DNA from: Paludibacter sp.
GTDB lineage: Bacteria > Bacteroidota > Bacteroidia > Bacteroidales > Paludibacteraceae
Length of the DNA: 64,000 bases
Direction: 5' to 3'
NCBI GenBank assembly: GCA_031292575.1
Contig: JARLGX010000008.1
Location: 214,028-278,027 of the forward strand
Shown here: positions 15,147 through 44,352 of the stretch, one piece after another
Position numbering within the stretch: position 1 is the stretch's first letter
Layout of the letters: each line of letters opens with the position of its first letter
Program-made: the position numbers and the translations under genes
The notes under the pieces: model-generated
What the model saw: only the letters and a program-made list of their open reading frames with translations
Told to the model about the DNA's origin: nothing
Database searches by the model: none

Positions 15147-15169
15147 GGCAATAAATACAGATTACTGCC
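15147..15169. repeat. palindromic box 1, putative AbiEi operator
   Basis: GGCAATAA-atacaga-TTACTGCC, upstream of abiEi. Confidence 0.65.
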
Positions 15170-15202
15170 ATTAATTAGTTTTTATTTATATCTTTGCATT
15201 AA

Positions 15203-15946
15203 ATATTTAAGACTATCGCAACTACAAAATTATATATCGAAGAATTAAAGCTGTTTTTCAAAGCAACAGAACGTTTTGAAACAACAGATATTTTTGCTTT
15301 CTACAAGCAATTAGATCCCTATATCAATCCTAAAACAGTCAATTGGAGGGTCTATTCATTAGTTCAGTTAGGCATTATTAATCGGGTTGGTAGGGGCAAA
15401 TTTACGTTAGGAAACCAACAAAACTATTTACCCGATATTTCCCCTAAAATAAAAACGATATATTCTAAAATAAAAAAGGAATTCCCATTTTTAAATATCT
15501 GTGTTTGGAATACCTCCACAATCAATGAATTTATGCGTCATCAACCTGGTCGCTTTTATTTTCTTATTGAGGTCGAAAAAGATTCAATTCAATCCGTTTT
15601 TTATTATCTGAAAGAGTTGAATTACGCTGTCTTTTCAGATCCGACAAGTGATATTTTAGACAAATATTTACCAAACAATAAAGACATCCTTATAGTCAAA
15701 TCGTTGGTCACAGAAGCACCAACTCAAAATATCAAAGGCATTGATACAATTTCATTAGAAAAATTACTGGTAGATATTTATTGTGATGATGTAATTTTCG
15801 CTCCACAACAAGGTGCAGAAATGCGTACTATTTTTGAAACTGCACTAACTAAATATGCTGTTAATCAAAGTAGGATGTTACGTTATGCAAGCAGAAAAGG
15901 AAAAAAGGAAAGTTTTACCAAATATCTGAATTCAATTTCAAATTAG
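15203..15946 (+). CDS. AbiEi-like type IV antitoxin (5' end uncertain, non-ATG start)
   Basis: The ORF track starts at 15533, but the frame is open from 15203 (TTKLYIEELKLFFKATERFETTDIFAFYKQLDPYINPKTVNWRVYSLVQLGIINRVGRGKFTLG), an N-terminal winged-helix-like segment; followed by an AbiEii toxin. Confidence 0.75.
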   Translation: MFKTIATTKLYIEELKLFFKATERFETTDIFAFYKQLDPYINPKTVNWRVYSLVQLGIINRVGRGKFTLGNQQNYLPDISPKIKTIYSKIKKEFPFLNICVWNTSTINEFMRHQPGRFYFLIEVEKDSIQSVFYYLKELNYAVFSDPTSDILDKYLPNNKDILIVKSLVTEAPTQNIKGIDTISLEKLLVDIYCDDVIFAPQQGAEMRTIFETALTKYAVNQSRMLRYASRKGKKESFTKYLNSISN

Positions 15947-15947
15947 C

Positions 15948-15970
15948 GGCAGTAAATATCAATTACTGCC
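15948..15970. repeat. palindromic box 2, putative AbiEi operator
   Basis: GGCAGTAA-atatcaa-TTACTGCC, perfect 8-bp arms, between antitoxin and toxin; 19/23 identical to box 1. Confidence 0.7.
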
Positions 15971-15982
15971 AATTTATAGTTT

Positions 15983-17047
15983 ATGATAGATAAAAAAAAC
16001 ATATCGCTGGAATGGATTAACAGCGTGTCTCGGGCTAACAAAAATGCAGATAAGATTCTTGTAGAAAAAGTTATTCGTGCATTGCTGTTATTGGAAGGGC
16101 TTGTCCACGATGGAATCCCTTTTGTCTTCAAAGGAGGAACAGCATTAATGCTTCATTTAAACTCCACTAAAAGACTATCGATTGACATTGATATTATTTT
16201 ACCGGAAGTACCGGAAGATTTCGATACAAGGCTTGATACCATTGCAGGTCAACAGGGATTCCTTAGAAAAGAAGAGCAAGTTCGGAACACTGAAACAGCT
16301 ATTAGTAAAAAACATTATAAATTCTTCTATACACCTCTACACCAAACAAATAAAGAAGAGGAGTATATATTACTAGACATTTTACTTGAAGAAGTAAATT
16401 ATCAGGAACTAATTCAACTTCCGATAGAATCTACATTTGTGCCATTGATAGGTGATTCTCTTTTAGTAAACATACCTTCATTAGAAGATTTACTTGGAGA
16501 CAAATTAACAGCATTTGCTCCAAACACCACAGGAATTCCATATTTCAAACATGAAGATAGTATGAGCATGGAAATTATCAAACAACTTTACGATGTCGGT
16601 AATTTATTTGAGGTCGCAAACAATATAGATACATTAAAAACAACATTCAATATTTTTGCAGAAACAGAACTAACATACCGTCCTGACGAAAATACAGTAC
16701 CGGATGTTTTAGAAGACATTTTCCAAACAGCTCTTTGTATAGCAAGCAAAGGCACAGACGGCAAAGGGAACTATACTGAATTATTAGTAGGAATTCAACG
16801 GGTAAATCCATTTATTTTCTCAGAAAACTATCATTTGGAAAAAGCAATTGCACATGCCTCAAAAGCAGCATATCTTTCTACAATAATTAAACATGACACA
16901 GCCCAAATTGAAAAATTCGAAAATCCTTTACAAGTAAAAGATTGGCTTATTTCAGACACTCATTACAACAAACTCAACAAACTTAAAAAATCAAATCCGG
17001 AAGCTTTTTTTTACTGGTATAAGATATTTGAAACAATAAATAAATAG
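15983..17047 (+). CDS. AbiEii/AbiGii-family nucleotidyltransferase toxin
   Basis: FVFKGGTALMLHLNSTKRLSIDIDIIL nucleotidyltransferase signature; paired with AbiEi-like gene. Confidence 0.9.
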   Translation: MIDKKNISLEWINSVSRANKNADKILVEKVIRALLLLEGLVHDGIPFVFKGGTALMLHLNSTKRLSIDIDIILPEVPEDFDTRLDTIAGQQGFLRKEEQVRNTETAISKKHYKFFYTPLHQTNKEEEYILLDILLEEVNYQELIQLPIESTFVPLIGDSLLVNIPSLEDLLGDKLTAFAPNTTGIPYFKHEDSMSMEIIKQLYDVGNLFEVANNIDTLKTTFNIFAETELTYRPDENTVPDVLEDIFQTALCIASKGTDGKGNYTELLVGIQRVNPFIFSENYHLEKAIAHASKAAYLSTIIKHDTAQIEKFENPLQVKDWLISDTHYNKLNKLKKSNPEAFFYWYKIFETINK

Positions 17048-17091
17048 TATAAATCAAGCATTTCTTTTAACGATTATATAAAACAAATTGA

Positions 17092-18324
17092 ATGAACCTA
17101 GATTTTTCACAAAGCAATACGAGGTTACTTACCCACGGTTTTCATAAATACCCTGCAAAGATGGTACCCCAAATTGCAAGTGCTTTAATATCAGAATTTG
17201 GGGCAAATGCATCTTTGTTGTTCGATCCTTACTGTGGGACCGGCACTTCATTAGTTGAAGCCAATGTTAGAGGAGTTGACTCAATTGGTTCTGATTTAAA
17301 CCCTTTAGCAATTTTAATTTCAAAAGTCAAAACAACACCAATAGAATTGCAGACCTTAGAATTACATTTAAATGATTTTTATAAATACCTATTTCCATTC
17401 AGATACCATCTCAACCCTAAAGATTACATTGTTGTAAATTTTCCAAGGATTGATTTTTGGTTTTCAAAAGAAGTCAAAAACAAACTTTCAATAATTAAAG
17501 ATTATGTAAATAGTATTGAGAACATTGATATAAAAGATTTTTTCAAGATTGCTTTTAGTCATACTATCAGAGAGTGCTCATTTACAAGAAACAATGAGTT
17601 TAAATTGTATAAAATGTCTGAAGATCAAATAAAATCATTCAACCCTGAACCATTTGGTATAATGGAAGAGATTTTAGGGATGAATTATTTAGGGCTAAAA
17701 AGTTTTATTGAAGAACGTAAAAATGCAAAAACAACATCTCTTATATATGACTTTAATACAATAGATAATATACCACAATCAATAATCATTGACAAATCAA
17801 TTGACATTGTTGTAACATCTCCACCTTATGGTGATTCTTCTACAACCGTTGCATATGGTCAATTTTCCGCTCTTTCTAATCAATGGTTAGACCTCATGGA
17901 AAATGGTAGATCTCTTGATAAGAATCTAATGGGTGGCTCAAGAATAACTGATTTGCCAAACTTTGAAAGCAAAGTATTAAATAAAGATATTGAGGCTGTA
18001 AAAAAAATTGATGATAAAAGGGCTTTGGATGTAATTTCCTTTTATTCTGACTATGAAAAGTCGATAAAAAATATTTCTACAGTAATCAAACCAAATGGAT
18101 ATGCTTGCTATGTTGTAAGCAATAGGAATGTGAAGGGAAATATATTACATACAGATGAAATTACAAAAGATTTTTTTCAACAATGTGGTTTTAATCACAT
18201 AAATACATTCTACAGAAAAATATCAAATAAACGGCTACCTAGATATAATAGTCCAAAAGGAGAAATTGGTAGCAGGGCAGAATTAATGAATACAGAGTCA
18301 ATAATAATCATGCAAAAACAATAA
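17092..18324 (+). CDS. site-specific DNA methyltransferase (N4/N6 amino type)
   Basis: LLFDPYCGTGTSLVEANVRG (SAM-binding) and VVTSPPYGDSSTTVAYGQ (catalytic S/TPPY). Confidence 0.9.
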   Translation: MNLDFSQSNTRLLTHGFHKYPAKMVPQIASALISEFGANASLLFDPYCGTGTSLVEANVRGVDSIGSDLNPLAILISKVKTTPIELQTLELHLNDFYKYLFPFRYHLNPKDYIVVNFPRIDFWFSKEVKNKLSIIKDYVNSIENIDIKDFFKIAFSHTIRECSFTRNNEFKLYKMSEDQIKSFNPEPFGIMEEILGMNYLGLKSFIEERKNAKTTSLIYDFNTIDNIPQSIIIDKSIDIVVTSPPYGDSSTTVAYGQFSALSNQWLDLMENGRSLDKNLMGGSRITDLPNFESKVLNKDIEAVKKIDDKRALDVISFYSDYEKSIKNISTVIKPNGYACYVVSNRNVKGNILHTDEITKDFFQQCGFNHINTFYRKISNKRLPRYNSPKGEIGSRAELMNTESIIIMQKQ

Positions 18325-18325
18325 T

Positions 18326-21184
18326 ATGAGAGATTTGTCTTTTTTTTCAGAAAATCAACAGGATGCCATTAAAACGAATGATAAGCATCTTCGAATTATT
18401 GCTTGTGCTGGCTCAGGAAAAACCACAACAGTCGCTGGGAAGGTTGCTTATCTTTTAGACCCGAATAATGGATTTGACATCAAACCACAAAATATCATTG
18501 CGTTCACTTATACTGAAAAAGCTGCTGCCGAATTAAAAAACAAGATTCTCAATGAGGTTGATAATTATAGAGGCATGGCAGATATGTATATTGGGACTAT
18601 TCATGGGTGGTGTTTAAAATCTCTGCAAGAAAATGAATATAAGTACCAAAGTTATTCTGTATTAGATGATATTAAGCTAAAATTATTCGTCGATAAGAAC
18701 TATGACAATATTGGAATGAAAGAAATATATAAACTTTCAAATCCAGCTGTACCACTTCGGAGATTTATTGACACTTCATTATTCGTCCGTATAATGGACA
18801 TATTACGTGAGTCAGATATTACTCCGGGAGAAACTATTCCAGCCAATTTTGTTCTTGCAAAAAAGAAGTATCAAGATTTGTTGATGAGTAAGCGCTACTT
18901 TGATTTTTCTATGATTATGGAAAAGGCGATGGATTGTCTTGCCCATGGAACAAATCTAACAAGGAAAATTCAGGATAATATAAAATATTTAATTGTAGAT
19001 GAGTATCAAGATGTGAATCCCCTTCAAGAAAAACTGATCAACCGATTACAAGAAATAAGTCAATGTAAGCTGGTTGTCGTCGGAGATGATGATCAAAACA
19101 TATATCAATGGAGAGGTAGCAATAATAAATACATTATTGAATTTGAAAATAAGTTCCAGCCCGAAAATGTCAAAACAATACCCTTGTCAATCAATTATAG
19201 AAGTTCTGAAGGAATTACTCGACTTGCTGAAACATTCATTTCTAATAACATAAAAAGAATTCCGGATAAAGAGATGTTATCCGCCAAAAATCAAATATTC
19301 ATAAAAGGTCAAGATATTTTATATAATCGATATAATTCAGTAGATGATGAAAATGAAGCAATCGCTAATTATATAGATAATATCTTAGGTGTCGTTTTTA
19401 ATGAAAATGGAGATGCCCCTAGAGGAATTTCTTTCTCCGATATAAGCATCCTACTAAGAACTTGGAATAAGGCCGAATCTATTGTTGAAGCTCTTAACCG
19501 ACATAATATACCATATATTACTGCAGGTGTGAACCAGCTTTTTGAAATGGATGAAATTAAGGCTTCACTAGGGATTTTTACTTACTTATATGGAGATATT
19601 GATAAGGCAGAGTTAGAACAACTTTGGATGAATATTCTAGGGAATAACTATCCTGTTGAAAAACTAAGAGAAGCTATATTACAACTAGATTTGAAAGACC
19701 CCAAAATCGACGCGGTTAAAGATAACTGGGAATATTCTTTACAGGATATATTTTGGAATTTCTTAAGTAATGCTGAAATCACAGAGGAAACTTTTGTCGA
19801 TAGTTCAACTAGTGAATTAAAATTTAGGACCACCCAAAAGGCAGAAATAATATTTTTCAATTTCGGTAAATTTAGCCAAGTTATAAATGATTTTGAAATC
19901 GTTAATTTTAATAGCTCTGGTCCGTCATTTCATTTGTTTAGCTTCTTGAGTTTCGTAACTTATGTAGCCAAAGATTATTATCCCGAAGGCTGGATGAATA
20001 ATCCATACAGAACTCCAAATGCAGTTCAAATTATGACAATACATCAGTCTAAAGGATTAGAGTTTCCTGTTGTAATCATTCCTTGTTTAAATCATAATTA
20101 TCTACCGTCAAAGAAAAAGGGTGGGCTTAACGAATGGCATTTTTTAGACAGGTCATTAATTAAAGAACAGTATAGATACGAGGGTGATCCTGACAAAGAA
20201 GATGAAAGAAGATTGCTCTATGTAGCTTTAACTAGAAGTCAAAAATATCTTTTACTAACACAAGCGCCAGATCTTCGAAATCAATTATATAAAAAGGAAT
20301 CCGAATACATTCAAGAACTTAATGATGCAAAAATCGGATCACTCCCGATTTTAGTAACGGATTTAAAACAAGGATTCTCAAATCTAGTTAAACAAGATCA
20401 AAGTCCCAAAGAAAAAGTCAAAAATATTTCATTAGACTTTACGAGCCTTAAAGACATATTTGATTGTCCTTATAGGTTTAAATTAATTTCTGTATTTGGA
20501 TTTTGTTATCCATTGAATCAAAGAATGGGGGTCGGAAAGTCATTTCATAATTGCTTGATGGAAATCCACAAAGAAGCAAAAATTGGAAATTTATTTTCAA
20601 AAGAAAAACTTAATGAACTCATAGATAGACAAACACATTTCCCATATATAACAAAATCAACAAAACTTCGGCAACCGTTGTATGACAAAGTAAAAAATAA
20701 TGTTGAAGCTTATTATGAGGATAATAAAGAAGAATTTAAAAACATTGAATTTGTTGAGCAGGAAATTCAATACAAAGTAGATAAAAGTATTTTAATTGTT
20801 GGAAGAATTGATTTAATTAAAAAAGTTTCAGAGGCAGGAATTTATGAAACTACTATTGTAGAATTCAAAAGTGATGAGGACAGTGCTGATGCCCCAATAA
20901 CAAAAGATCAATTAAGGTTATATGCTTTAGGTCACAGAGAATTAACCGGTGAAATTGCAAACTATATCATGACTTATGTCATTGGTAAAAATAGATCAAA
21001 AACGCCTGAAAAACTTTACGAGGAAGATTTGACTGAGATTGAAGGTAAAATAAAGCACTCAGTAGAATTAATAAGAGATGAACATTTTATAACTACATCA
21101 GACTTAAATATCTGTAAAGAAAATTGTCATCAAATTAGATTATGTGCAAATCGATTAAAAAATAACCTTAAACCTCGTAGATAG
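18326..21184 (+). CDS. UvrD/Rep-family helicase fused to PD-(D/E)XK (RecB/AddB-like) nuclease
   Basis: IIACAGSGKTTTVAGKVAYLL, VDEYQDVNPLQEKLI, VVGDDDQNIYQWRGS, MTIHQSKGLEFPVVIIP, ERRLLYVALTRSQ; C-terminal ETTIVEFKSDE...QLRLYALGH and CPY...CKENCHQIRLC, suggesting an Fe-S-capped nuclease. Confidence 0.92.
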   Translation: MRDLSFFSENQQDAIKTNDKHLRIIACAGSGKTTTVAGKVAYLLDPNNGFDIKPQNIIAFTYTEKAAAELKNKILNEVDNYRGMADMYIGTIHGWCLKSLQENEYKYQSYSVLDDIKLKLFVDKNYDNIGMKEIYKLSNPAVPLRRFIDTSLFVRIMDILRESDITPGETIPANFVLAKKKYQDLLMSKRYFDFSMIMEKAMDCLAHGTNLTRKIQDNIKYLIVDEYQDVNPLQEKLINRLQEISQCKLVVVGDDDQNIYQWRGSNNKYIIEFENKFQPENVKTIPLSINYRSSEGITRLAETFISNNIKRIPDKEMLSAKNQIFIKGQDILYNRYNSVDDENEAIANYIDNILGVVFNENGDAPRGISFSDISILLRTWNKAESIVEALNRHNIPYITAGVNQLFEMDEIKASLGIFTYLYGDIDKAELEQLWMNILGNNYPVEKLREAILQLDLKDPKIDAVKDNWEYSLQDIFWNFLSNAEITEETFVDSSTSELKFRTTQKAEIIFFNFGKFSQVINDFEIVNFNSSGPSFHLFSFLSFVTYVAKDYYPEGWMNNPYRTPNAVQIMTIHQSKGLEFPVVIIPCLNHNYLPSKKKGGLNEWHFLDRSLIKEQYRYEGDPDKEDERRLLYVALTRSQKYLLLTQAPDLRNQLYKKESEYIQELNDAKIGSLPILVTDLKQGFSNLVKQDQSPKEKVKNISLDFTSLKDIFDCPYRFKLISVFGFCYPLNQRMGVGKSFHNCLMEIHKEAKIGNLFSKEKLNELIDRQTHFPYITKSTKLRQPLYDKVKNNVEAYYEDNKEEFKNIEFVEQEIQYKVDKSILIVGRIDLIKKVSEAGIYETTIVEFKSDEDSADAPITKDQLRLYALGHRELTGEIANYIMTYVIGKNRSKTPEKLYEEDLTEIEGKIKHSVELIRDEHFITTSDLNICKENCHQIRLCANRLKNNLKPRR

Positions 21185-21186
21185 TA

Positions 21187-21972
21187 ATGGGAGCATATAA
21201 GGACAGAAAAATTGCTAAAGCCAATTTAAAAAAACTTGTTGAAGATCCTTCAAAAGTTTTATTCATTCATTATTCTCAAAGTAGAACATTTGATGAAGAT
21301 TACGGTAACATATCTCCAATAATTACATCTATAGTTATTAAGTCTCTTGACAATCAAATTGACCAACTATTTGCTATTCATTTAGAAGCAGATAAGGCAG
21401 ATATTCCGGTTGAACAAATACAGGATTCATACAGAGAATTAGAATTGAGAATTCTAAATTCATTTAATAATTTTGTAAAAAGGCATCAAGATTGCATCTG
21501 GGTTCATTGGGAAATGAAAAATGTTCAATTTGGATTCGATGCAATAAAACATAGATATGAAAAAATAGTCAATAACACAAATGATTATTGCGAAATCCCA
21601 ACAAACAAAAAGCAAAATCTTAAAATAATACTTGAAGGCATTTATGGAGAAAACTTTGTATCCGGTCCTGATTATTTAAAATCATTATTGTCTGAAAACA
21701 ACAGTAGAATTACAAACAATGAATATTTAAGTATTGATAATGAATCACAGGAATTTGAGCATAAAAATTTTATGAGTGTTGTTAATTCGATAGATACAAA
21801 AGTTGAATTTATTAGAAATGCAACAAAAAAATTGACTCGGAATAAATTAATTGTTTCTCATAAAAACAGGTTTGCTATTTTTGTAGATGTAGTAAATCAT
21901 CCAGTCTTTACTTTCATCGGTTGGGTTGCAACTATTTTAGGAGTAATTTTAGCAATAATAGCACTTAAATAA
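21187..21972 (+). CDS. uncharacterised protein with one C-terminal TM helix
   Basis: 2-bp gap from the helicase gene; soluble N-terminal domain (VLFIHYSQSRTFDEDYG...WVHWEMKNVQFGFDAIKHRYE) and C-terminal TM (FTFIGWVATILGVILAIIALK). Confidence 0.75.
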   Translation: MGAYKDRKIAKANLKKLVEDPSKVLFIHYSQSRTFDEDYGNISPIITSIVIKSLDNQIDQLFAIHLEADKADIPVEQIQDSYRELELRILNSFNNFVKRHQDCIWVHWEMKNVQFGFDAIKHRYEKIVNNTNDYCEIPTNKKQNLKIILEGIYGENFVSGPDYLKSLLSENNSRITNNEYLSIDNESQEFEHKNFMSVVNSIDTKVEFIRNATKKLTRNKLIVSHKNRFAIFVDVVNHPVFTFIGWVATILGVILAIIALK

Positions 21973-22136: not shown

Positions 22137-24230
22137 TCAGCCTATTGAAATAGGACGAGGTTTATCCGTCCAATAAAAACATAACATTTCGCAATCGACT
22201 AGTTCCTGCTGTGTTTCATTAAAGATAGCTGAATATGGACTTTCTATATAATTTAATCCTGTTTTGTTACAAATCATTTTTTTTACATTTATAAGTGGAG
22301 CCATATATAATTGCTGTGTCCTTAATAATTCCGCTAAGTCTTCTTTCCCTTCATCGAATTCAATCTCGTACAAGTTATGATTTGATTTATCTGGAAATGA
22401 CATGTTTTTTATATCCTTCAGAATTAACCGCCTCGTAAAAAATAACATCCCATCATCTTTAATTATCTCGGATAATACTGGATATTGATTTTCAATACCA
22501 TTCTCTTTTATGAATTTTGATTGAGCAGTCAACCATGATTTGAAGCCATCTCTGTGAGTAGGAATACTATCGAAAGATTTAAACCATAGGTCCAAATCAA
22601 AAATATGCCCAATAAAGCTGATTAGAACTTCATTTTCGTCAATATCCCATGACAATGAAAAAGAGATAACTTCATTACTGTTGTTTTTTAATAGCTGTGT
22701 TATTAATAATTTTATTCCATCAACAGTTTCATTCACTAGTTTTTGGGTGTTTGTATCGCCATGAGTTATACAAGGTATATTACAATAATAATCTTCTGGA
22801 ATAATGAACAAACAATCATTTGGTAAATCTATACTTGCTCCAACTCGCCTTATCGCTTTAACTAATTCAACTGTAAAGTATTCTAGAGCTTTGAATTTTC
22901 CATTTTCTAACAATATCTCATCACAAGAAGATATATATCTGTTTATAGTTTTTTTCTTGACTTTTTCTCTATACGACACATACAATCTTATTCCCTCTCC
23001 TTTATTTATGGAATAAGGAAGATACTTTTCAAAAGCAGTTTTAGTTTCATCTTGTTTTTCTAAGTCAATATTAGGCTTTTGCAACTCAAAATACTCATAA
23101 ATCTGAGGATTACCCTGAAGATATTTAGTAACTAAACTCTTCCATGACGATAAAGGTAAACTTCCATCTATTCTGAAAAGTTTAGTATATTGACTCCTTC
23201 TACCCATTTCTGTCATTTTTTTATCAAGCCTATCTATCATTAGGTCTGTATCATAAGCTCTGATTGCACCATCAAAATGATTAAAACTCTTATTTTTACT
23301 ATCATATATTGAGTGAACATAACGACAAGTGTATGTATCTTTTAAAGTTGGTGCAGGTTCATTCTTAACTTCCTCCATCTCAAAAGTATATAAGTCATTA
23401 TCATTCTTCCATACAAACTCCGTTTTTACTAGATTGTAATATAATTTCTCATAGTCGCTGCTTCCATAAGTAGTTAATCCTGAAGGAATAGATGAAATAT
23501 CATCATTGTATTTCGGTCCCCACCAGTATTCAAACTCCATTCCTGTAATAAAGGATGGTGCATAACCTAAAAAATCACCATCAATCTTTATCTTGATTTT
23601 AACGTCAGCTACTTTCGCAAAAGATAAAAACTCATCTATAAACTCCCAATTAAAGTTATTGAATATCGAAGTTGATTTGCGAAAATAAGGATGCAATATA
23701 ACGGCTAAGTCAGAATCTTTTTTTTTGAATACTCCCTGTGATAAGTGTTCAAATTTATCCAAAAACCATTGTATTTCTATTAAACCATCTTTGTCCAGTT
23801 GATTGGATAAGTCTGGAAAAGCATTGAATACAATATCATTATATCCATATAGGACAATGCTGTTATAAAACCATTTTCCTTTATCTTCGATGTATAATTC
23901 TTTTAAAGCATCAATAAATTGTGTGTAATGAGGTTGTATTTGAGTGTTTAAATGGTGCGTAAAGTACTTACTTTTAGCGTCAGATATTATTTCATAATCA
24001 TTTTCACTGTCAGCAACCCACGTACAGCCCATGACTAAAACTTTGTTGGGGGCAAAAAATAATCCTTTCGTAAAAGACCACCCTGCAGTTCGGTGGATAT
24101 CGTGCGAGATATTAGTAGGAGTGCCAACTATAGAACCTTGCCAAATTGTATCCTCTAAAGCAGAAATAGTAAATTGAATTCCGTCTCTACTTGGTTGATC
24201 GGAAAGGAAAACTCCCAAGTATTTCATCAT
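22137..24230 (-). CDS. uncharacterised 697-aa protein, partner of SIR2 gene
   Basis: Long ORF starting with a 4-bp overlap of the SIR2 gene stop; no family recognised. Confidence 0.8.
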   Translation of the reverse strand: MMKYLGVFLSDQPSRDGIQFTISALEDTIWQGSIVGTPTNISHDIHRTAGWSFTKGLFFAPNKVLVMGCTWVADSENDYEIISDAKSKYFTHHLNTQIQPHYTQFIDALKELYIEDKGKWFYNSIVLYGYNDIVFNAFPDLSNQLDKDGLIEIQWFLDKFEHLSQGVFKKKDSDLAVILHPYFRKSTSIFNNFNWEFIDEFLSFAKVADVKIKIKIDGDFLGYAPSFITGMEFEYWWGPKYNDDISSIPSGLTTYGSSDYEKLYYNLVKTEFVWKNDNDLYTFEMEEVKNEPAPTLKDTYTCRYVHSIYDSKNKSFNHFDGAIRAYDTDLMIDRLDKKMTEMGRRSQYTKLFRIDGSLPLSSWKSLVTKYLQGNPQIYEYFELQKPNIDLEKQDETKTAFEKYLPYSINKGEGIRLYVSYREKVKKKTINRYISSCDEILLENGKFKALEYFTVELVKAIRRVGASIDLPNDCLFIIPEDYYCNIPCITHGDTNTQKLVNETVDGIKLLITQLLKNNSNEVISFSLSWDIDENEVLISFIGHIFDLDLWFKSFDSIPTHRDGFKSWLTAQSKFIKENGIENQYPVLSEIIKDDGMLFFTRRLILKDIKNMSFPDKSNHNLYEIEFDEGKEDLAELLRTQQLYMAPLINVKKMICNKTGLNYIESPYSAIFNETQQELVDCEMLCFYWTDKPRPISIG

Positions 24231-25467
24231 GACATTTTTGGATTTAAATCAGTAATTTTAAGTGTCTCAAGTTGCTTAATCACGAGTTTTGCACTACTCC
24301 CTATTTGGGCCACAAAACTTTTAACTAAGTCGCCAGCAAAAGGATCTACAATATAACATGGTTTTCCTTTTCCGAACTTTTCAATCAGAATTTTATTAAT
24401 TTCTGTATCCTTACATCCATATCCAATTATTATTAACATGTCAGCAGCTTTGATATTGTTCTCAAACATCTTAAATAACTGTTTGTATAGCAATGGTTCT
24501 CTATATCTTATTATTTTAGAAGAGGTTCCAGTCAAAAAATCAGAGTGATAGTTTACCCAACAATTTTCATAGATTATATTTCCGTCCTTATCCATCTTTT
24601 CTTTATAAAAATTAGTGGAGCCTACTCCCCATTTACTTTTTATATAATTTTCAGGAATAAACGCATTCCCCTGAGTTCCAGAATAAACATAATAGTCCTT
24701 ACTACCATGCAGTTTATAAAACCTAATTTTGCCTGTATATTTCCCTGTATATCTTGACAATCGACACATATAGTTTCGATTATCATGGAGCAGTTTACCA
24801 TAATATGGTGAATTGAGTTCTTCAAAACCATCACTCAAGTTTCCATTTAGCCATTCTGTATTATTCAACCGCTCAAAAAATAAATCATGATTTAATGTGT
24901 GAATATTCAAAGTGTAATCTTTTGACAAGTGCTCAATACAATTAAGCAAGCCCGTATATCCATCGAAAGTCGGTTTCAAATAAAAGGCTTCATCATCATG
25001 CCAATTTTTACCATCTCTATCTTTTAGATAAGAAGACACTAGTTGATTGAATATGTTGTCTACTTGAAATAAATAATCTTCAAATTCACTTTTGTCACCA
25101 TCATACTTCTTCTCAAAAAAAAATCGTTTAGGGCTGAATCGTTTTTTGCTTCATTTTTGAAGTAATCGTAGAATTCTTCATAATCAAACACTTTGATAAT
25201 GTCATTGTAAAAATGCATTAAATCAATGCAAAATTTAAAATACAAATCATAATGACTAATTGACCCTAAGTCCGGTTTTGTTCCATCGATATTTGTCACT
25301 AAATGACCATCATTTGCAAAAGCAAAATCATCTACAGTACAATTCAATAGTTTTTCGTTGAGTTGATTACCTATTGGATACCCCTTTGGTGCAGAAAAAC
25401 CAGCTCCTAATAAGAAGGAAATTGACTTGACTTTTTTACAATTAAATAGTTTCTCAAAAAAACTCAT
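24227..25467 (-). CDS. SIR2-like domain protein, frame interrupted at a T9 tract
   Basis: ORF 25060-25467 has LLGAGFSAPKGYPIG; ORF 24227-25039 has HTLNHDLFFE, YKLHGSKDYY, IIGYGCKDTEINK. Adding one T at 25115-25123 joins them in frame. Confidence 0.85.
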
Positions 25468-25708: not shown

Positions 25709-26917
25709 ATGGGGCAAGTAAAACAAAGTTATATTGAAGCAGAAGAAAGAGGTTTTAATGATCCTCCAGAAAAACTTGTTTGCGCAAATCATTTTGATGA
25801 TCCTGCAATTAAAAGATATATACGATCTAATTCAATTAAAGGAACTTGGAAGTGTGATTACTGTAATAAAAAACATAAAGTCGTAGATTTGTTATCTGTT
25901 GTATCATTTATTAATGATAGAGTAGGCAGATATTTTGGAGACATCAACAATCAGGATTTATATCTGGCTTCTTCATTTGAAATTGAAGATGATGAACCAT
26001 CGGGTTTTGGTTTCTACGATGCTTGTGGGTATGCTATGCCTAAAGGAAGGCATACCTACTCTTTCGAAGAATTAATTTTTGAAACCGACCTTGATATAAA
26101 TAATTTAAAATTAAGTGAAGATATTTCGGAATGTTTTTGGGATAAAACATACTGCCTAATTGAACCATTTATTAGTACTGAATCTGAAGAATTGTTATTC
26201 CGTTGGAAGGATTTTTGTAATACAATAAAGCATTCACGTCGTTATACGTTCTTAAAAACCTTAGAGGTTTCGAATAAAAAGTCATCAGAAAACGGATTAG
26301 AAGATATACTTACTGAAATTGGAAAGGCAGTTGAAGAAGGCCATTTGATTAGAATAATAGACTGCGATTCGCAAATATACAGATGTCGAGTCCACAATAA
26401 GGATGAAAAAGTTGATCGTTTTGAGCATCTTGCATCTCCTCCTGATGAAAGAGCAAAGCAAAATAGGATGAGCCCAGCAGGTATATCAATGTTTTATGGT
26501 GCTTTTGATGAGAAAACAGCGATTATTGAAGTAAAAAGTGGAATGGATGATACACCTGATTCAATTACAACAACAGCCATTTTTAAAACAAAGAAAAAAC
26601 TGAGAGTAATCGACTTTACAGGGTTACAAAATAAAATTAGTTATTATGAAGATTACAACTATTATATAATTGAGTTTCTGAAATCATTCGTAAATGGGAT
26701 TGCACAAAAGATTATCCATGATGACAGAATTCATATCGAATATATACCGACACAAATTATTACAGAGTATTTCAGATACATTTTTAAAGCTAATAGAAAC
26801 CATAAAGTTGATGGACTAATATATAGAAGCTCAGAAAATAAAGGAGGTAAGTGCTGTGTTTTATTTTTAGACAGAAATAAATGCCCAGACTACATGTACC
26901 TATCAAGCATAATTTAA
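25709..26917 (+). CDS. HEPN/RES N-terminal domain and RES domain protein
   Basis: N-terminal CANHFDDPAIKRYI...WKCDYCNKKHKVVDL; C-terminal RES-like RCRVHNKDEKVDRFEHLASPPDERAKQNRMSPAGISMFYGAFDEKTAIIEV. Confidence 0.85.
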   Translation: MGQVKQSYIEAEERGFNDPPEKLVCANHFDDPAIKRYIRSNSIKGTWKCDYCNKKHKVVDLLSVVSFINDRVGRYFGDINNQDLYLASSFEIEDDEPSGFGFYDACGYAMPKGRHTYSFEELIFETDLDINNLKLSEDISECFWDKTYCLIEPFISTESEELLFRWKDFCNTIKHSRRYTFLKTLEVSNKKSSENGLEDILTEIGKAVEEGHLIRIIDCDSQIYRCRVHNKDEKVDRFEHLASPPDERAKQNRMSPAGISMFYGAFDEKTAIIEVKSGMDDTPDSITTTAIFKTKKKLRVIDFTGLQNKISYYEDYNYYIIEFLKSFVNGIAQKIIHDDRIHIEYIPTQIITEYFRYIFKANRNHKVDGLIYRSSENKGGKCCVLFLDRNKCPDYMYLSSII

Positions 26918-27036: not shown

Positions 27037-28071
27037 TTATTTAGCGCTAATCCTTCTTTCTAGAGATGGATGTCTTAAAGGTGCAATTTCAAAATTCTCG
27101 ATACCACATATTATTTTGAAAAAAGATAATTCTAATTCGATGTGAAAATCCTCAGTGCACATAAGCAAGAATCTTCGATCATCTTTAGTGTTAATAATTT
27201 TATTTTTACTTTTAGATGGTACTTTCTTTGTTTTATAAACATCAACAATACACTTTTCAACGTACTCTTTACTTATAGTTTCATCAAAAAAGAGTTGACT
27301 TTCACTGTTTAGGTATTGCATCACATTAAACTGATGTATATCATCAATATTATCTGTCGAAATACAATTTATTGAGTCCCCACATCTGTATACATTAGAA
27401 TCATAAAAACATATCATCAAACGGGGATGAATAGGATAAAAGATCTGAAGACCTTTAACTGGTAATCCAGTAGCACCAGCATAGAAACCTGCTTTTTCCA
27501 TATACTGATTATAGAGTATTACCGGAGAATCAGAAGTTATAAATGGTAAGTCGCTCAAATTCACAATAAATTTACAATCGAGATAATCTAAAAGATATCC
27601 CTTGTTTCCTGATTGTCCCAAAATCAATAACGTAGCTTCTTCATGATATATTTTTAATCCATCAAATTGTTTCACTTTATCCGGCTCAAAATATGGGAGT
27701 AGCTTTTGAAAAACATCATTGAGCTGTTCTAACAGATCATTCCCAGCTTTAGGGGTTCTAAATAATTGATATAAAATAAACCTTTTCAAAGCAGTAAATG
27801 CAACAGAGTCATGAGGAGGTGGCAGTAAAATCTTTTCGTCTGTCCAAAAATGAAATAATTTCGCCATAGCACTTTCTAATTTTGCAAGCTCGGTCTCAAC
27901 GTCATCTTCCTTACCATATAAAAAATCTTTACTTGCTTGATGTTTAATAGGAGCACTTTGGATGAACATATTATTGTTGTAATTATACAGTCCAATAGTT
28001 TTACCGTCCTCATTGACAGAAAAACGTTTAAGATAAAACCTTGGAACATAATGATGATTTTTTTTACTCAT
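27037..28071 (-). CDS. DUF4238 domain protein
   Basis: MSKKNHHYVPRFYLKRFSVNEDG...; SDLPFITSDSPVILYN. Confidence 0.88.
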   Translation of the reverse strand: MSKKNHHYVPRFYLKRFSVNEDGKTIGLYNYNNNMFIQSAPIKHQASKDFLYGKEDDVETELAKLESAMAKLFHFWTDEKILLPPPHDSVAFTALKRFILYQLFRTPKAGNDLLEQLNDVFQKLLPYFEPDKVKQFDGLKIYHEEATLLILGQSGNKGYLLDYLDCKFIVNLSDLPFITSDSPVILYNQYMEKAGFYAGATGLPVKGLQIFYPIHPRLMICFYDSNVYRCGDSINCISTDNIDDIHQFNVMQYLNSESQLFFDETISKEYVEKCIVDVYKTKKVPSKSKNKIINTKDDRRFLLMCTEDFHIELELSFFKIICGIENFEIAPLRHPSLERRISAK

Positions 28072-29956: not shown

Positions 29957-30091
29957 ACTTGAGATTGTTTATTATGATTCTCTACCTAACGGTTCTACTA
30001 ATCTGGTCGAAAATCTATTTATTTGGAAAACACACCGGCACTAAAACAGAATAAGACAATCGGCATACAACATGATATGCTATCTTGATTT

Positions 30092-30523
30092 TTATTCCGT
30101 TGCATTATTAAAGGTAAAAGTCAGTTGCTTCACCTGCCCGAAATTATCCTCCACATAAACGTCTATAGTTTGTTGATCCGTTGATGCAGAAGTATAATAA
30201 AGCCTGAATATCCCTTTATCCAGCGGATAACGATCATTCGGTTTAAACACGGTTCCGTCCTCCATCTGGAGAGAACCTTTACCGGCCGGCTGAAAATACC
30301 GAATGGTATAAGTTGCTCCGTCATACAGCCCTTCACGTTTGAGTTCACACCTGATTTCGGCGGTTTCACCTTTTACTATTTGTGTTTGTACAGGCATTGT
30401 TTCTACAGTAAACGGAAACACCTGCTGAACATCCAACTTGTTATCACAAGAGGTGCAACAAAAAAGGGTGGCGATCACAAAGCCACACATAACCGTATTG
30501 AATACTTTCCTTTTCATACACAT
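30092..30523 (-). CDS. traQ: conjugal transfer protein TraQ-like (DUF3872)
   Basis: Lipoprotein-like FVIATLFCCTSCDNKLDVQQVFPFTVETMPVQTQIVKGETAEIRC at the tra operon end. Confidence 0.8.
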   Translation of the reverse strand: MCMKRKVFNTVMCGFVIATLFCCTSCDNKLDVQQVFPFTVETMPVQTQIVKGETAEIRCELKREGLYDGATYTIRYFQPAGKGSLQMEDGTVFKPNDRYPLDKGIFRLYYTSASTDQQTIDVYVEDNFGQVKQLTFTFNNATE

Positions 30524-30529
30524 TATTTT

Positions 30530-31105
30530 TTAAAGAATAAACTTGATTCCTGCACCGACTTGTGTGTGGAAATGCCCCGTTGAACCTCCCCACAAACACC
30601 GTTCACGAGTATGAAGCAATAAGAGGATACGATCGGAAAGATAACTTTCCAACTCCAACGAGATTGCACCCCCATAGATAAAAGCATCTTCATTCGTCAA
30701 ACGTGAACCGTCAAGCAGGACCTTCTCACCCCAATTTACGGTCTCGTAACCTGCAAGAGCCGATCCACCGAGGTAGAGGAAGAATATCTTGTTGGCATCG
30801 GAAAGGACATGGATATAATAGCCACCTTCGGTTGTAAATTGTGTCGTTGGAATACGGGTATCTTTATACGGATTGTATTTTTGAAGATACTCACCGCCGA
30901 ATAGCCACTTATTCCCGCCTATCGTATACGTGGAAAGAGTCGTACTGAAATAGTATCCCGTCTCTTTTTGGTTGGCGTAGTTATACAGACCATCTACCAT
31001 CCCGGTCGTTAGCTGGATACCCCGCATCCTCGGGAGGCATCGTTGAGCATTCGCCTGCCCGACAAGGGCAAGCGACGCTACTACAAAGAACAAGAACTTT
31101 CTCAT
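30530..31105 (-). CDS. traO: conjugal transfer protein TraO
   Basis: MRKFLFFVVASLALVGQANAQRCLPRMRGIQLTTGMVDGLY. Confidence 0.88.
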   Translation of the reverse strand: MRKFLFFVVASLALVGQANAQRCLPRMRGIQLTTGMVDGLYNYANQKETGYYFSTTLSTYTIGGNKWLFGGEYLQKYNPYKDTRIPTTQFTTEGGYYIHVLSDANKIFFLYLGGSALAGYETVNWGEKVLLDGSRLTNEDAFIYGGAISLELESYLSDRILLLLHTRERCLWGGSTGHFHTQVGAGIKFIL

Positions 31106-31106
31106 G

Positions 31107-32021
31107 TTACTTCACTTTTAATTCGTTGATAACTTTGGCACGTACCAGATCTTCATTCTCAATGGTGAACGACTGGTGGCGCCCCCCATTTTTCTCGTTC
31201 AAGTCTACTACCAATTGCTTGTCATCGGGAATGGTGAATTTATCCATTGCAAATACTGTACACTCATCTTTCTTTCCGGCTACACGGATAGCATAGTTGT
31301 AGGCGCGAAGCGGGAAAATGACCTGTTCCTGTATGGCAGTGCGTTTAGCAACTTTTTTATCTACGATTTTGAACGTGATAAAATCCACGTCAAACGGTAC
31401 GTTGGAAGAATTTCTAATCTGTGTGTGGAAGTATAGCAGCCCGTTGTGGGTATAAATCCCTTTCAGCAGGTACTGGATACCGAAACGTTTGCAACCGATG
31501 TGTTTCACCTCGCGCTTGTCGTTCTTGTAGATGGATTTCATAATCATATGCACCAGCATTGGGCTCTCACTTCCCAGTTCTTTCAGGTAGATTTCCATTG
31601 CATTATTCGGACGATTCACTTCCTCACCATCATGGATAAAGTCGGTCATTTCTACATTCAAGAGTAATGGCTCATTGGCATACTTTACGTTGAAAGTGTA
31701 GAACGAGCCATCTTCAGTAATCACCGAGAGATTGGTCTCCTGCCGGAAATTCTTTACTGTTGCTTTCACCCGGATTACATTTTCAGCTCCGTCCGCCTTA
31801 CCTGCAATCAGGTTAGGAGAACCTAAATCGACATAGCGCACCGCCGAAGGGAAGATGATGTGTACTGTCTTATCGTAAGTCACTTCCAGCCCGCGAGGTG
31901 GAATCATACGGTCAAACGTTAGTTTTTTAGTCAGACCTTGGTAAAGGTCACCTGTTGTTTCTTGTGCATGTACTGCAAACAGGCTCATCATAAGAGCCAT
32001 AGTTAATAAGAACTTTTTCAT
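31107..32021 (-). CDS. traN: conjugative transposon protein TraN (DUF4138)
   Basis: LTFDRMIPPRGLEVTYDKTVHIIFPSAVRYVDLGSPNLIAGKADGAENVIRVKA. Confidence 0.92.
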   Translation of the reverse strand: MKKFLLTMALMMSLFAVHAQETTGDLYQGLTKKLTFDRMIPPRGLEVTYDKTVHIIFPSAVRYVDLGSPNLIAGKADGAENVIRVKATVKNFRQETNLSVITEDGSFYTFNVKYANEPLLLNVEMTDFIHDGEEVNRPNNAMEIYLKELGSESPMLVHMIMKSIYKNDKREVKHIGCKRFGIQYLLKGIYTHNGLLYFHTQIRNSSNVPFDVDFITFKIVDKKVAKRTAIQEQVIFPLRAYNYAIRVAGKKDECTVFAMDKFTIPDDKQLVVDLNEKNGGRHQSFTIENEDLVRAKVINELKVK

Positions 32022-32075
32022 TTTATTTGTGGATTTTAGTGTTTGGGTCTAAAGACCCGTTGTTAATAATAGAAT

Positions 32076-33443
32076 TTAATTTTCCGGTTGGTATAGCATG
32101 ACCTTACATCCGGCTTTCAGGTGCACCTTGACGGTGTGCATTTTCTTGGCGATATACTGTGAAGTACCTTGAATAGCTCCTTTACCTAAATCGGAAGCCA
32201 GTTGTGCTCCTGCATTAGTCGAGATATTAATACTGCTTCCGAGTGAAGACCCCATGTTAGCGGCTACTTCTTTGATGGCACTGGACTCCATTGAATTGGG
32301 GATAAAAATACCTTCCTGTCCGTCATTATCGAATACCGACAACTCGACAGGGGTAATTGTTCCTGCGTATTCAAGGGAAGTGATGGTGATGTTCAGCCTT
32401 TCGCCTTGTATCTTTGCAGCACCGATAATAATGGCATTGCGTGGTATAACGGTTCCCCTTACATTCATCGGTTCCAATATCCGCAGACGAACGGTTTGTC
32501 CGTCAGTCAAGGTTTGATCTCCGTGTATGCACGCTGCAATTGTATTCTTTTCCTGTGAGATACTGTTACCAACAGCCGTGTAAAAGCCTACATTGCGCGA
32601 TTGGGAATAAGCAGTTATAAATGCTGTGTCACTCAGCGGTTGGGCAAGAGCTGATACAAGTTTTGTTGTGACCTGTGTGACAGGAGTTATTGCTGTTTTC
32701 CCATTTGCTGTATTTCCATTGCGTTTTTTCTCTGAATGCACCTTTTCACCGGAGGAGCTTGTCTGCACCGGTTGCCCGGCTTGTCCTGAAGGCATATATT
32801 TTGCTGCCAACTCATAGGATTTTTCAAGCAGGGCAACCTGATCATTCATGGTTGATTTCGGAGTTTCCTGTGAAGCCAGACGTTTCTCCAGTTCATCAAT
32901 ACGCTGTTGAAGTTCCTCCTTTTTGGAATCCTCTTTCGGCGAGTCATAAAAATTACCCAGTGTGCGGTTCATGGTCTGGTAAGCGGCTGTGGAGGACAAT
33001 ATAGTCTGTCGGGGGCGGTAACTTCCTCCACCAGTAGAAGTATATGCCGGTTGTTTCCCCGTTTCAGCATTTGTCAAACCAACACTTTTTTCAGATGCTT
33101 CTTTTTCGTTACCAAATAAAGAAGCGAGGTCTTGCATTGTACTGTTACGTTCTTTCTGCTTATCCTCCATTTTAGCATGTTCGTAAGCTTTTTGCTTATC
33201 GCCAATAATACCGGTATCGGTCGGGAGTGGCATGTCCGTGTTGAATTTCTGACCCTGCTCTTCCTTTTTCTTGTCTTTAGCGGACGGAGCAAAGATTAGC
33301 CACATTGAACCAGCAAAAAGCAGGAACATAAGTGGATACACCAGCATTTTCTTGCGTTTTTGACGCTGCTCTTCCGTCAAGGTCTTTTCAGGCTTTCTTG
33401 GTGTAGTTGAAGCCTTGTCTAACTTGTTTTCTTCCATAATCAT
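32076..33443 (-). CDS. traM: conjugative transposon protein TraM
   Basis: KKMLVYPLMFLLFAGSMWLIFAPS...GFYTAVGNSISQEKNTIAACIHGDQTLTDGQTVRLRILEPMNVRGTVIPRNAIIIGAAKIQGERL. Confidence 0.92.
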   Translation of the reverse strand: MIMEENKLDKASTTPRKPEKTLTEEQRQKRKKMLVYPLMFLLFAGSMWLIFAPSAKDKKKEEQGQKFNTDMPLPTDTGIIGDKQKAYEHAKMEDKQKERNSTMQDLASLFGNEKEASEKSVGLTNAETGKQPAYTSTGGGSYRPRQTILSSTAAYQTMNRTLGNFYDSPKEDSKKEELQQRIDELEKRLASQETPKSTMNDQVALLEKSYELAAKYMPSGQAGQPVQTSSSGEKVHSEKKRNGNTANGKTAITPVTQVTTKLVSALAQPLSDTAFITAYSQSRNVGFYTAVGNSISQEKNTIAACIHGDQTLTDGQTVRLRILEPMNVRGTVIPRNAIIIGAAKIQGERLNITITSLEYAGTITPVELSVFDNDGQEGIFIPNSMESSAIKEVAANMGSSLGSSINISTNAGAQLASDLGKGAIQGTSQYIAKKMHTVKVHLKAGCKVMLYQPEN

Positions 33444-33706
33444 ACTATTTTATAAGCGTTGATACTATCTTGCTTCGAATGCAAGTCTAACTGTTTGATA
33501 TGTTCTATCTCTATTTGTTGACCGTCATTTTTGCCAATACGGTAAAGTGCTGTCCCGAGCGTGGAGAAAGCACATATTGCAAATAAGGTGAGGAGACCAA
33601 AGACGACGACAAGCCTCATTTTAGGTGATAAGCTCTCCAATTTACAGCGCAGTCGTTCATCCTGTCTGTTTCTCCAATTCTTAATACATTTTATTAGATT
33701 TTTCAT
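33440..33706 (-). CDS. traL: conjugative transposon protein TraL (DUF3989)
   Basis: Small single-TM protein between TraM and TraK; overlaps traM by 4 bp. Confidence 0.78.
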   Translation of the reverse strand: MKNLIKCIKNWRNRQDERLRCKLESLSPKMRLVVVFGLLTLFAICAFSTLGTALYRIGKNDGQQIEIEHIKQLDLHSKQDSINAYKIV

Positions 33707-33708
33707 CT

Positions 33709-34362
33709 TTATCTCTCCTGTGTTTTTAAATCCTTGTTTTCAAGAATGGTGAATCCTTCGATGGTGAACCCATTGGGATTATTGTCACTACGGGTGGCAT
33801 TCAGCAGATGACAGGTCGTTACAAGGCTTCGTTCTGTTACGTTGCTTTCACGGATAATCATTTGTCGGGCATAGGTATTGACCAAATAAGGGTAGCGATC
33901 AAAGTTGCAGACCACACTATCCACCTGAACTACCTGATTGATATTGCCGGCAATAATGCGGTTATAATATCCTTTCTCTACAAAGTCACTGTAGTAGTTG
34001 TATGCACTTTTATCAGCCAATAGCAAAGCCCGTTTTATATTATTGTCAATGGCACTCTTATCGGGAGACAGCGTGAAAAATAGCTCGTGAAAGCGGCGGA
34101 CATGTTCTCTTGCTTCCGCAGGACGGTTTTGAGAAAGATCTTGCGAGAGGGCAAGCATCAATGATTTGCCACCGTCCAGCACGTATATCTTTTCACGCTG
34201 TTTCTGCGCGAACTCGTAGGAACTCCAAACGGAGTATCCTACGATAACGGCACATAGGGAAACGAAAACGATTCCGAACAAGCGTATTTGCCTGAAACTT
34301 GTTTCGATGTTCTTTAAACTTTTAAATTCCATATTTTTGAATCTCATATTTTTATATTTCAT
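33709..34362 (-). CDS. traK: conjugative transposon protein TraK
   Basis: MEFKSLKNIETSFRQIRLFGIVFVSLCAVIVGYSVW; operon position. Confidence 0.9.
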   Translation of the reverse strand: MKYKNMRFKNMEFKSLKNIETSFRQIRLFGIVFVSLCAVIVGYSVWSSYEFAQKQREKIYVLDGGKSLMLALSQDLSQNRPAEAREHVRRFHELFFTLSPDKSAIDNNIKRALLLADKSAYNYYSDFVEKGYYNRIIAGNINQVVQVDSVVCNFDRYPYLVNTYARQMIIRESNVTERSLVTTCHLLNATRSDNNPNGFTIEGFTILENKDLKTQER

Positions 34363-34383
34363 ACTTGTTTTGTTTTTCCCTTT

Positions 34384-35397
34384 TTACTTTTTCAGTAGAC
34401 GACCGGCTACATTACCGGTCATAGCCCCGGCTACACTTCCGGCAACACCCCCTGCACGATTAGCTGTCTGACCGATATTACGTCCGTAGCTGCCCATTCC
34501 ACCGGCTTGAATAATCCAACCGGAAACGGTCGGTATGGTGAAATAGCCGATAATGCCAATGATCATGAATATAATATATACACTATTACTGGCATCGATG
34601 GAGTAATTGGGGTTATTTTGTAATTCCGAAATATCGTTTTGCAGCATCAACACTTGTATTTTAGCCAATATACTGCTGAATAAATCTGATACGGGTAGCC
34701 ATAGATAAACCTGCACATAGCGGCAGATCCATTGTGTGAGCGTACTTTGAAATCCATCCCAGACAGAAATGGCAAAGGCTATCGGTCCGAGTATCGCCAA
34801 TACGATAAGAAAGAAGGTACGGATGGTATCAATCACCAGGGCGGCAGCCGCAAATAATAATTCCAATACTTCTCGGAAAAAATCCCGGATAGACTTTTTC
34901 ATGCTGTACATTCCCCGTTCGATATACATTCCCGCCATAGTCACCACATCCTCCGGTGACCAGCCAAGCTCGTCCAATTGCTTATCGAACTCCTCGTTAC
35001 TGACCAGATAAGCCGTTTCCGGGTTTCGCATCATGGATTCATATTCCAATTTGTCTTTCTGTTCCCTGTATTTGTTCATATCAAAAGTCTGACTTTCGAG
35101 CAGTTGGTTCGTTCCCTGTACAATGGGACTTAATACCCCGTTAATCGTTCCGAGCACAATAGTTGGAAAAAACATAATACAAAAACCTATCGCAAACGGA
35201 CGTAACATCGGATACACGTCAATCACCTCGGCATGGGAGAGTGATTGCCACACCCGTACAGACATATAAAACAGGGCTCCTAATCCTGCCACGCCTTTTG
35301 CCACCCCGGACATATTGGAGCAAAGTGGCATCATCTCCGTATACAGTGAGCGAAGAATGGTGTGCAGGTTATCAAAATCAATGGTTAGTAGCATCAT
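34384..35397 (-). CDS. traJ: conjugative transposon protein TraJ
   Basis: MLLTIDFDNLHTILRSLYTEMMPLCSNMSGVAKGVAGLGALFYMSVRVWQSL; multi-TM. Confidence 0.92.
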   Translation of the reverse strand: MMLLTIDFDNLHTILRSLYTEMMPLCSNMSGVAKGVAGLGALFYMSVRVWQSLSHAEVIDVYPMLRPFAIGFCIMFFPTIVLGTINGVLSPIVQGTNQLLESQTFDMNKYREQKDKLEYESMMRNPETAYLVSNEEFDKQLDELGWSPEDVVTMAGMYIERGMYSMKKSIRDFFREVLELLFAAAALVIDTIRTFFLIVLAILGPIAFAISVWDGFQSTLTQWICRYVQVYLWLPVSDLFSSILAKIQVLMLQNDISELQNNPNYSIDASNSVYIIFMIIGIIGYFTIPTVSGWIIQAGGMGSYGRNIGQTANRAGGVAGSVAGAMTGNVAGRLLKK

Positions 35398-35400
35398 AAA

Positions 35401-36030
35401 TTACCAATATCTATCGTTATTACTTCCATAAAGAGCCAATATCCTTGACGTATCATTTTTCTTTTTCGCCCGCAAGTAGCTAACCGAAATATTCTTGTTA
35501 GTGTAGTAGGTAACCAGGTTGCGGTAGCGTTTTGCCGAGTTGTAGCATTTGTCTATCACGTCCATGCGTTCCTTATCGGTCATTGAAAGTGTGGTGATGT
35601 TGACTACGTCTTTCATCTCTTTCAAGACATCATTGCTCTCTTCCAGTAGTTTCGTGTAGCCAAAGGCAATGGCTCCTAATTCCTCTACTGTATAGTTATC
35701 GTCCCGCAACATCTTTTGGAAGCTATTCACATAAACATCCGAGATCTCTCCAATCATCAGGATGGTTTGTTGCACCTTGCGGGCATCTTTGATCAGGTTA
35801 TTTACGGACTTCAATGCGTCGTAATACTTCTTTCCCTGATCATAGATTTTCACCGTTTGCTGAAAGTTCGACAACATATTTTTTGCCGTGGTCGAAGTCT
35901 CTACAATTTGTTTTGTGGTGTTGATAATCCCCTGTGCGAGATTCGTGGGATCGGTTACGACCCATTGTGCGCTTGCTTTTCCTGTGAAGAGCAGGCACAA
36001 ACTAAAAATGATCAAAATTTTTGTTTTCAT
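35401..36030 (-). CDS. traI: conjugal transfer protein TraI (DUF4141)
   Basis: SAQWVVTDPTNLAQGIINTTKQIVETSTTAKNMLSNFQQTVKIYDQGKKYYDAL. Confidence 0.88.
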   Translation of the reverse strand: MKTKILIIFSLCLLFTGKASAQWVVTDPTNLAQGIINTTKQIVETSTTAKNMLSNFQQTVKIYDQGKKYYDALKSVNNLIKDARKVQQTILMIGEISDVYVNSFQKMLRDDNYTVEELGAIAFGYTKLLEESNDVLKEMKDVVNITTLSMTDKERMDVIDKCYNSAKRYRNLVTYYTNKNISVSYLRAKKKNDTSRILALYGSNNDRYW

Positions 36031-36054
36031 ATTCTTATGGATTTTAGTGGTTGA

Positions 36055-36420
36055 TTATTGTTTTACACCGACCCGGGTATAGTCCCCATGCGGTGAGAAG
36101 GTCAGTACATCTGTCGCCTCGTTATAGGCGATCTCGATACGAAACCCCGTGTTGATAAATAAATTACCGTTTTCTTCCTTTAGCAAGAAAGTTTCCGGTC
36201 GAAGCGTTCTTGTAATGCCCGCACGCCTGAATATCGTGACTTTATAGATATTCCCTTCGCAGAATATCACTACATCGGGCTCGCCATTCACGCTTACCCA
36301 ATTGCCACATAGTTTATCACGGTTGGTTTCTTTTGCAATACTGCAGGCTTGCAGCAATAGGACTGCTACGCCTACGAAATAGATGCTCAATAAGAGCAGC
36401 CGGTTTTTACTGTAATTCAT
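36055..36420 (-). CDS. DUF3876 lipoprotein-like protein
   Basis: Small lipoprotein-like ORF between TraI and TraG, typical tra operon position. Confidence 0.72.
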   Translation of the reverse strand: MNYSKNRLLLLSIYFVGVAVLLLQACSIAKETNRDKLCGNWVSVNGEPDVVIFCEGNIYKVTIFRRAGITRTLRPETFLLKEENGNLFINTGFRIEIAYNEATDVLTFSPHGDYTRVGVKQ

Positions 36421-36446
36421 ATGCTTTCGTTTTAAATGGATTTATA

Positions 36447-39277: not shown

Positions 39278-39281
39278 AATT

Positions 39282-39578: not shown

Positions 39579-39717
39579 AAATAGTTCTTGAGTTGTGCCG
39601 GGTGGTTGGATCGTCCGCCCGACGGATAAATACTGAGAATTTTAGTGGTGGATTTTAGTGGTTCACACTGAGGCTAGCCGTAATCGATTTTCTTCATTGT
39701 TTCTTGTTTTTTTATTG

Positions 39718-40419: not shown

Positions 40420-40428
40420 AGACTCTGA

Positions 40429-41176: not shown

Positions 41177-41185
41177 GATTCTTTA

Positions 41186-44348: not shown

Positions 44349-44352
44349 AACT

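Follow-up and report, generated by a model that had tools for sequence, protein, structure and literature searches.

Five plus-strand genes lie close together in a 64,000-nucleotide stretch of a Paludibacter sp. genome (hereafter the window), which raises the question of which of them belong together and what such a unit would do. A sequence-only reading had proposed that an AbiE pair, a DNA methyltransferase (MTase), a helicase-nuclease and a membrane protein constitute one compound defence system in which AbiE guards the locus against loss.

A conserved three-gene operon

Three of the genes form the core of the locus. MT (17092–18324, plus strand) encodes a 410-aa MTase of a type II restriction-modification (R-M)-like family, HEL (18326–21184, plus strand) encodes a 952-aa protein with a UvrD-type SF1 helicase and a C-terminal PD-(D/E)XK nuclease, and C261 (21187–21972, plus strand) encodes a 261-aa membrane-tailed protein of the phrog_8766 family. 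The gap is 1 bp between MT and HEL and 2 bp between HEL and C261, with 44 bp between the AbiEii gene and MT, and 36 bp before AbiEii. For AbiEii, the MTase, the helicase-nuclease and the 261-aa protein, the sequence-only reading had given the exact coordinates and the exact gaps of 44, 1 and 2 bp, and its domain calls hold (AbiEii, N6/N4 MTase, UvrD, PDDEXK_1 and, in the 261-aa protein, a single hydrophobic helix at the C-terminus).

HEL rather than the MTase was chosen as the marker of the system, because relatives of the MTase in Bacteroidota occur without HEL and C261, and the plasmid-annotated ones show restriction enzymes instead. When ~85,000 species genomes were scanned with an alignment of the HEL C-terminus, four close loci were obtained, located in a Bacteroidetes MAG (L075), Flavobacterium ajazii (L076), Reichenbachiella faecimaris (L077) and Salinimicrobium profundisediminis (L078). 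All four carry MT-HEL-C261 in the same order and orientation, with genes that overlap or adjoin closely (largest gap ~60 bp). Two divergent loci were added by a class-wide sample, namely L113, which carries MT, HEL and a C261-like gene, and L112, which carries MT and HEL without C261; seven loci including the window were thus considered, and the four close ones are all from Bacteroidota. That independent genomes carry the three genes with order and orientation unchanged rules out a chance neighbourhood, and MT-HEL-C261 is a real gene cluster and a conserved three-gene operon. The joint occurrence elsewhere on which the earlier proposal depended was seen in L075–L078 and, in divergent form, in L113. 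The lack of C261 in L112 shows that this gene is not an absolute requirement. The distribution is sparse, and no close HEL homologue was found in viral contigs.

HEL is related to helicase-nucleases of R-M loci

HEL was matched by the Pfam UvrD domain (2.9e-49) and, at its C-terminus, by PDDEXK_1 (PF12705/pfam12705; 1.5e-15), which was also found in all 7 aligned members. The nuclease residues D829, K848, Q862 and Y866 and the cysteines C714, C930, C934 and C940 were invariant in seven homologues, and we take the arrangement of the four cysteines to be the pattern of AddB/Cas4-type Fe-S nucleases. The HEL C-terminal profile gave no match in PDB. HEL is presumably an active nuclease.

HEL matches the UvrD-Cas4 fusions, in which an N-terminal UvrD SF1 helicase is followed, in the same order, by a C-terminal nuclease of the same family (pfam12705) with the conserved nuclease residues and the four cysteines, in an R-M-type neighbourhood. 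These fusions adjoin Type III R-M genes (Mod/Res) or Dcm/Vsr, and a defence role was predicted for them (Hudaiberdiev et al. 2017, PMC5704561). The window differs in that HEL is preceded by a type II-like amino-MTase and followed by C261, and the reported contexts occur in more distant HEL homologues rather than in the window. The Priestia homologue is accompanied by a C5 MTase, an MspI-family enzyme and Vsr, the Vibrio homologue by Dcm and an MvaI/BcnI enzyme, the Athalassotoga homologue by an MTase and a DEAD helicase, and the homologues in L114 and L115 by a C5 MTase, with a Vsr-like gene (named from sequence) in L115. HEL relatives thus occupy R-M loci, repeating the contexts of PMC5704561. 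The sequence-only reading had been unable to match the gene triplet to a named system; the helicase does fit the UvrD-Cas4 fusion, while the context MT-HEL-C261 was not found described.

Exchange of the methyltransferase

MT is an N6/N4 MTase (PADLOC PDLC03322, 3.2e-122), with motif I (DPYCGTGT) near residue 45 and SPPY near residue 243. Relatives of the window MT pair with MvaI/BcnI-family or other putative restriction enzymes, without HEL or C261.

Comparisons between the window and its four close relatives showed that HEL was 68–76% and C261 61–69% identical, whereas MT was only 27–30% identical. The MTs of L075–L078 were 56–80% identical among themselves. The reverse pattern was observed for the two divergent loci, to which the window MT was 61% (L113) and 57% (L112) identical but the window HEL only 47% and 43%, respectively. 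In the maximum-likelihood tree of HEL, the window grouped with L075 and L076 (99/96) inside a five-member clade (100/100), whereas in the tree of MT it grouped with L112 and L113 (100/100). The AU test rejected a grouping of the window MT with those of the four close loci (p 8e-118). This strong conflict between the trees indicates that the MTase was swapped at the MT/HEL boundary. HEL is nearer to the four close loci than to L112/L113 over its full length and MT shows the opposite over its full length, which places the breakpoint at the boundary between the two genes. Recombination inside HEL was considered and rejected, as windowed identity to each relative showed no lineage switch. The lineage of the window has therefore exchanged its MTase for one of a different clade and kept HEL-C261. 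In other respects the two MTase clades both fall within type II R-M-like families.

The exchange points to a HEL-C261 pair that carries no fixed recognition sequence, in which case target selection may also fall to the MTase, as it does to Mod in Type III enzymes, and the choice of target would lie with the exchanged module. Two MTases could share a recognition site even at only 27% identity, and the swap would then be uninformative on which component sets the target.

C261 has a predicted exonuclease-like fold and predicted membrane tail

C261 had no significant sequence match in Pfam, NCBIfam or PDB, although weak matches to Pfam DNA_pol_B_exo1 were present, and a comparison of its profile with one phage polymerase gave no match. 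An AlphaFold2 model of C261 was confident (pLDDT 85), and its best PDB matches were family B DNA polymerases, at a moderate level (E about 1e-3, TM 0.45–0.5). We take the match to cover the polymerase-type 3'-5' exonuclease domain, in agreement with the weak DNA_pol_B_exo1 matches. The first strand of DEDD 3'-5' exonucleases carries a catalytic DxE. At this place in the C261 family an invariant HYS was found (26 aligned members), as mapped by sequence and predicted strand rather than by residue-level superposition, so C261 is unlikely to be a normal exonuclease.

At its C-terminus the window C261 has a hydrophobic helix (about residues 239–260), which is shared by the five close members and would locate C261 to the membrane. 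The C261-like protein of L113 has a shorter hydrophobic stretch followed by a further hydrophilic tail. The phrog_8766 proteins of prophages belong to the same family, and many of them also have a C-terminal hydrophobic helix; unlike C261 in its operon, they are mostly encoded by solitary genes in prophages and plasmids. Single phrog_8766 genes were observed in many phage or prophage contigs (L079–L106). In some of these, L089 among them, the gene sits between phage genes of the opposite strand, as accessory cargo would. On an Agrobacterium plasmid (L072, 2875–6810), a C261 homologue is located 3' of a TrlF-family ATPase gene, a possible two-gene system.

Proposed function of the operon

The operon has likenesses to three known defence systems and lacks a defining partner of each, and membership in them was rejected. 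MT falls in the same family as the MTases of Type II R-M systems (MvaI/BcnI and related), which have a cognate restriction enzyme, whereas the window has a helicase-nuclease and C261 instead, and no cognate restriction endonuclease was found among nine tested neighbours. A Type III R-M system would work in a similar way, in that the MTase may supply recognition to an ATP-driven nuclease, but Res is an SF2 protein, while the window has no Res and its motor is an SF1 UvrD-type helicase with a Cas4-like nuclease. The helicase domain of HEL matches GajB profiles of Gabija (GajA/GajB). Gabija also has GajA, for which no match was found among nine window proteins in the PADLOC matches listed, whereas HEL has a built-in nuclease and an MTase as its linked partner. 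In the literature searched, which left subscription journals mostly outside, we found neither a named system for MT-HEL-C261 nor a report of its activity. The helicase family and its link to R-M are already known; the MT-HEL-C261 operon, the exchangeable MTase and the fold of C261 were not found described.

The reading that we favour, with the chances for and against it about balanced, is that MT-HEL-C261 is a horizontally acquired R-M-like defence module with a plug-in MTase, in which HEL destroys unmarked DNA and C261 is placed at the inner membrane. The MTase would methylate the host's own DNA and probably also set which sites count as self, and HEL would unwind and degrade DNA without the MTase mark. 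C261 would hold or license the machine at the inner membrane, and its exonuclease-like, probably inactive domain may serve to bind the ends or strands of DNA. The MTase would be a plug-in part, exchangeable while HEL-C261 stays, and the whole would presumably act against phages or plasmids. The sequence-only reading had likewise described a system of modification, helicase-nuclease and membrane components, and the three core genes are indeed a conserved unit of that appearance, from which AbiE is to be removed. A more specific form of the favoured reading is tentative and rather doubtful at present, namely an ATP-dependent R-M system in which a UvrD-Cas4 protein and a membrane-tailed exonuclease-like protein stay constant and specificity comes from the plugged-in type II-like MTase, so that a single gene replacement would shift both the self mark and the attacked sites.

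The main rival, which we regard as unlikely yet to be taken seriously, is that HEL acts after cleavage by another agent. DNA ends would come from a separate endonuclease, phage replication or breakage, HEL-C261 would degrade from them in the fashion of RecBCD/AddAB, and the MTase would protect against some restriction enzyme of the cell, with no need for contact between MTase and HEL. HEL is built like the end-processing enzymes of the AddAB/RecB type, HNH nuclease genes adjoin the core in L077 and L112, dedicated restriction enzymes adjoin the HEL relatives in Priestia and Vibrio, and an exchange of the MTase would be easy if the partners do not interact. However, the tight coupling of MT and HEL (1 bp gap or overlap) was retained even after the exchange, and neither the window nor L075, L076 or L078 has next to the core an endonuclease of the kind that this explanation calls for. 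The absence of an adjacent restriction enzyme gene from these same four loci also counts against the R-M-like reading, as do the small number of loci (seven), the dispensability of C261 in L112 and the fact that UvrD-family proteins also act in repair.

The surrounding island and the AbiE pair

The cluster was acquired horizontally, as similarity to a congener ends at 14707 and none of 60 other genomes of the host's family, two of them of the same genus, contains HEL. Transfer genes of a Bacteroidota conjugative transposon (TraO, DUF4138, TraM, TraG, YWFCY/T4SS coupling protein) are located nearby at about 30–47 kb, and from this proximity we infer that a conjugative element carries the cluster as cargo. 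The G+C content was about 0.43 in the conjugative transposon genes (30000–47000) and about 0.31 in the defence genes. No direct repeats were found at the island ends.

A gene for a DUF4238 protein (27037–28071, minus strand) is probably a displaced fourth member of the operon. Its homologues lie directly 3' of C261 in L075 and L076, to which the window protein is 54% and 53% identical, and close homologues are scarce, occurring in 2 of 149 genomes, one of which is that of the window. Between C261 and this gene are located a gene for a 697-aa protein, a SIR2-like gene and a RES-domain gene. The SIR2-like gene (24227–25467, minus strand) is broken into two frames by nine consecutive A near 25115–25125, and the break may reflect a sequencing error, a recent mutation or phase variation. 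The gene for the 697-aa protein (22137–24230, minus strand) overlaps it by 4 bp, and this protein had no match in Pfam, NCBIfam or PADLOC, and only weak plasmid matches, in Pseudomonas. Because the SIR2 half matches Argonaute-associated SIR2 profiles (PADLOC), the 697-aa protein might, as a guess, be a divergent Argonaute partner. The RES-domain protein (25709–26917, plus strand) has an N-terminal HEPN_RES_NTD1 domain, and its gene, in the same island, is probably of the toxin type. The sequence-only reading had not noted the exchange of the MTase, the predicted exonuclease-like fold of C261, the likely fourth gene or the probable enclosing conjugative element.

These surroundings bear on a second rival, in which an orphan MTase and an accessory helicase-nuclease make up an operon for DNA repair, for replication or for maintaining the mobile element, and not for defence. 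Roles of UvrD-family helicases in repair and replication (PMC5704561) and the probable position of the cluster as conjugative cargo fit this explanation, but the relatives of the MTase are R-M enzymes, the AbiE, SIR2 and RES neighbours are typical of defence islands, and the distribution is sparse, all of which makes it improbable.

The AbiE pair is a neighbour of the core. AbiEii (15983–17047, plus strand; Pfam, 1.6e-20) is preceded by a frame that is open at 15203–15946 (plus strand), closed upstream by TAA at 15200–15202, and gives a full-length AbiEi match (residues 9–245, 1.6e-86). The sequence-only reading had wrongly started abiEi at 15147, where no frame starts; this position is the first base of a 23-bp imperfect palindrome (15147–15169) upstream of abiEi, which has a second copy (15948–15970) between abiEi and abiEii. 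Shuffled sequences gave no such pair. Since AbiE is known to be autoregulated, the palindromes may be AbiEi operators. The AbiEi frame has no ATG, GTG or TTG before 15533 (the first 330 nt). A Bacteroidota-type -7 motif at 15189 would start a transcript at about the first codon of this frame, so that translation may begin at a non-canonical codon without a leader; alternatively, the gene may have lost its 5' end.

AbiE was beside the core in none of the six other core loci, for which reason we regard it as a neighbour and reject it as a component, and no core gene was found near AbiE homologues in 13 other Bacteroidota genomes (loci of only about 4 kb), contrary to the proposal that AbiE belongs to or guards the system. 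A compound system of all five genes with AbiE guarding against loss is thus highly improbable, even though the short gaps allow one transcript and -7 motifs of the Bacteroidota type (TAnnTTTG) in the 350 bp before each of the five genes occur only in the AbiE region (15189 and 15829), since about 0.25 such motifs are expected by chance per 350 bp (an estimate) and their lack before the core is weak evidence. AbiE beside R-M-type genes recurs, though not with MT-HEL-C261; in L119 (747–4049), the gene immediately after an AbiE pair encodes a different DNA MTase, as named from sequence.

Implications

UvrD-Cas4 fusions were predicted in 2017 to act in defence, and a constant effector pair with an exchanged MTase makes the way in which targets are found directly testable by an MTase swap. 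For the C261 family, whose members are membrane-tailed, appear to share an exonuclease fold and are solitary in prophages, the operon provides the first stable partner.
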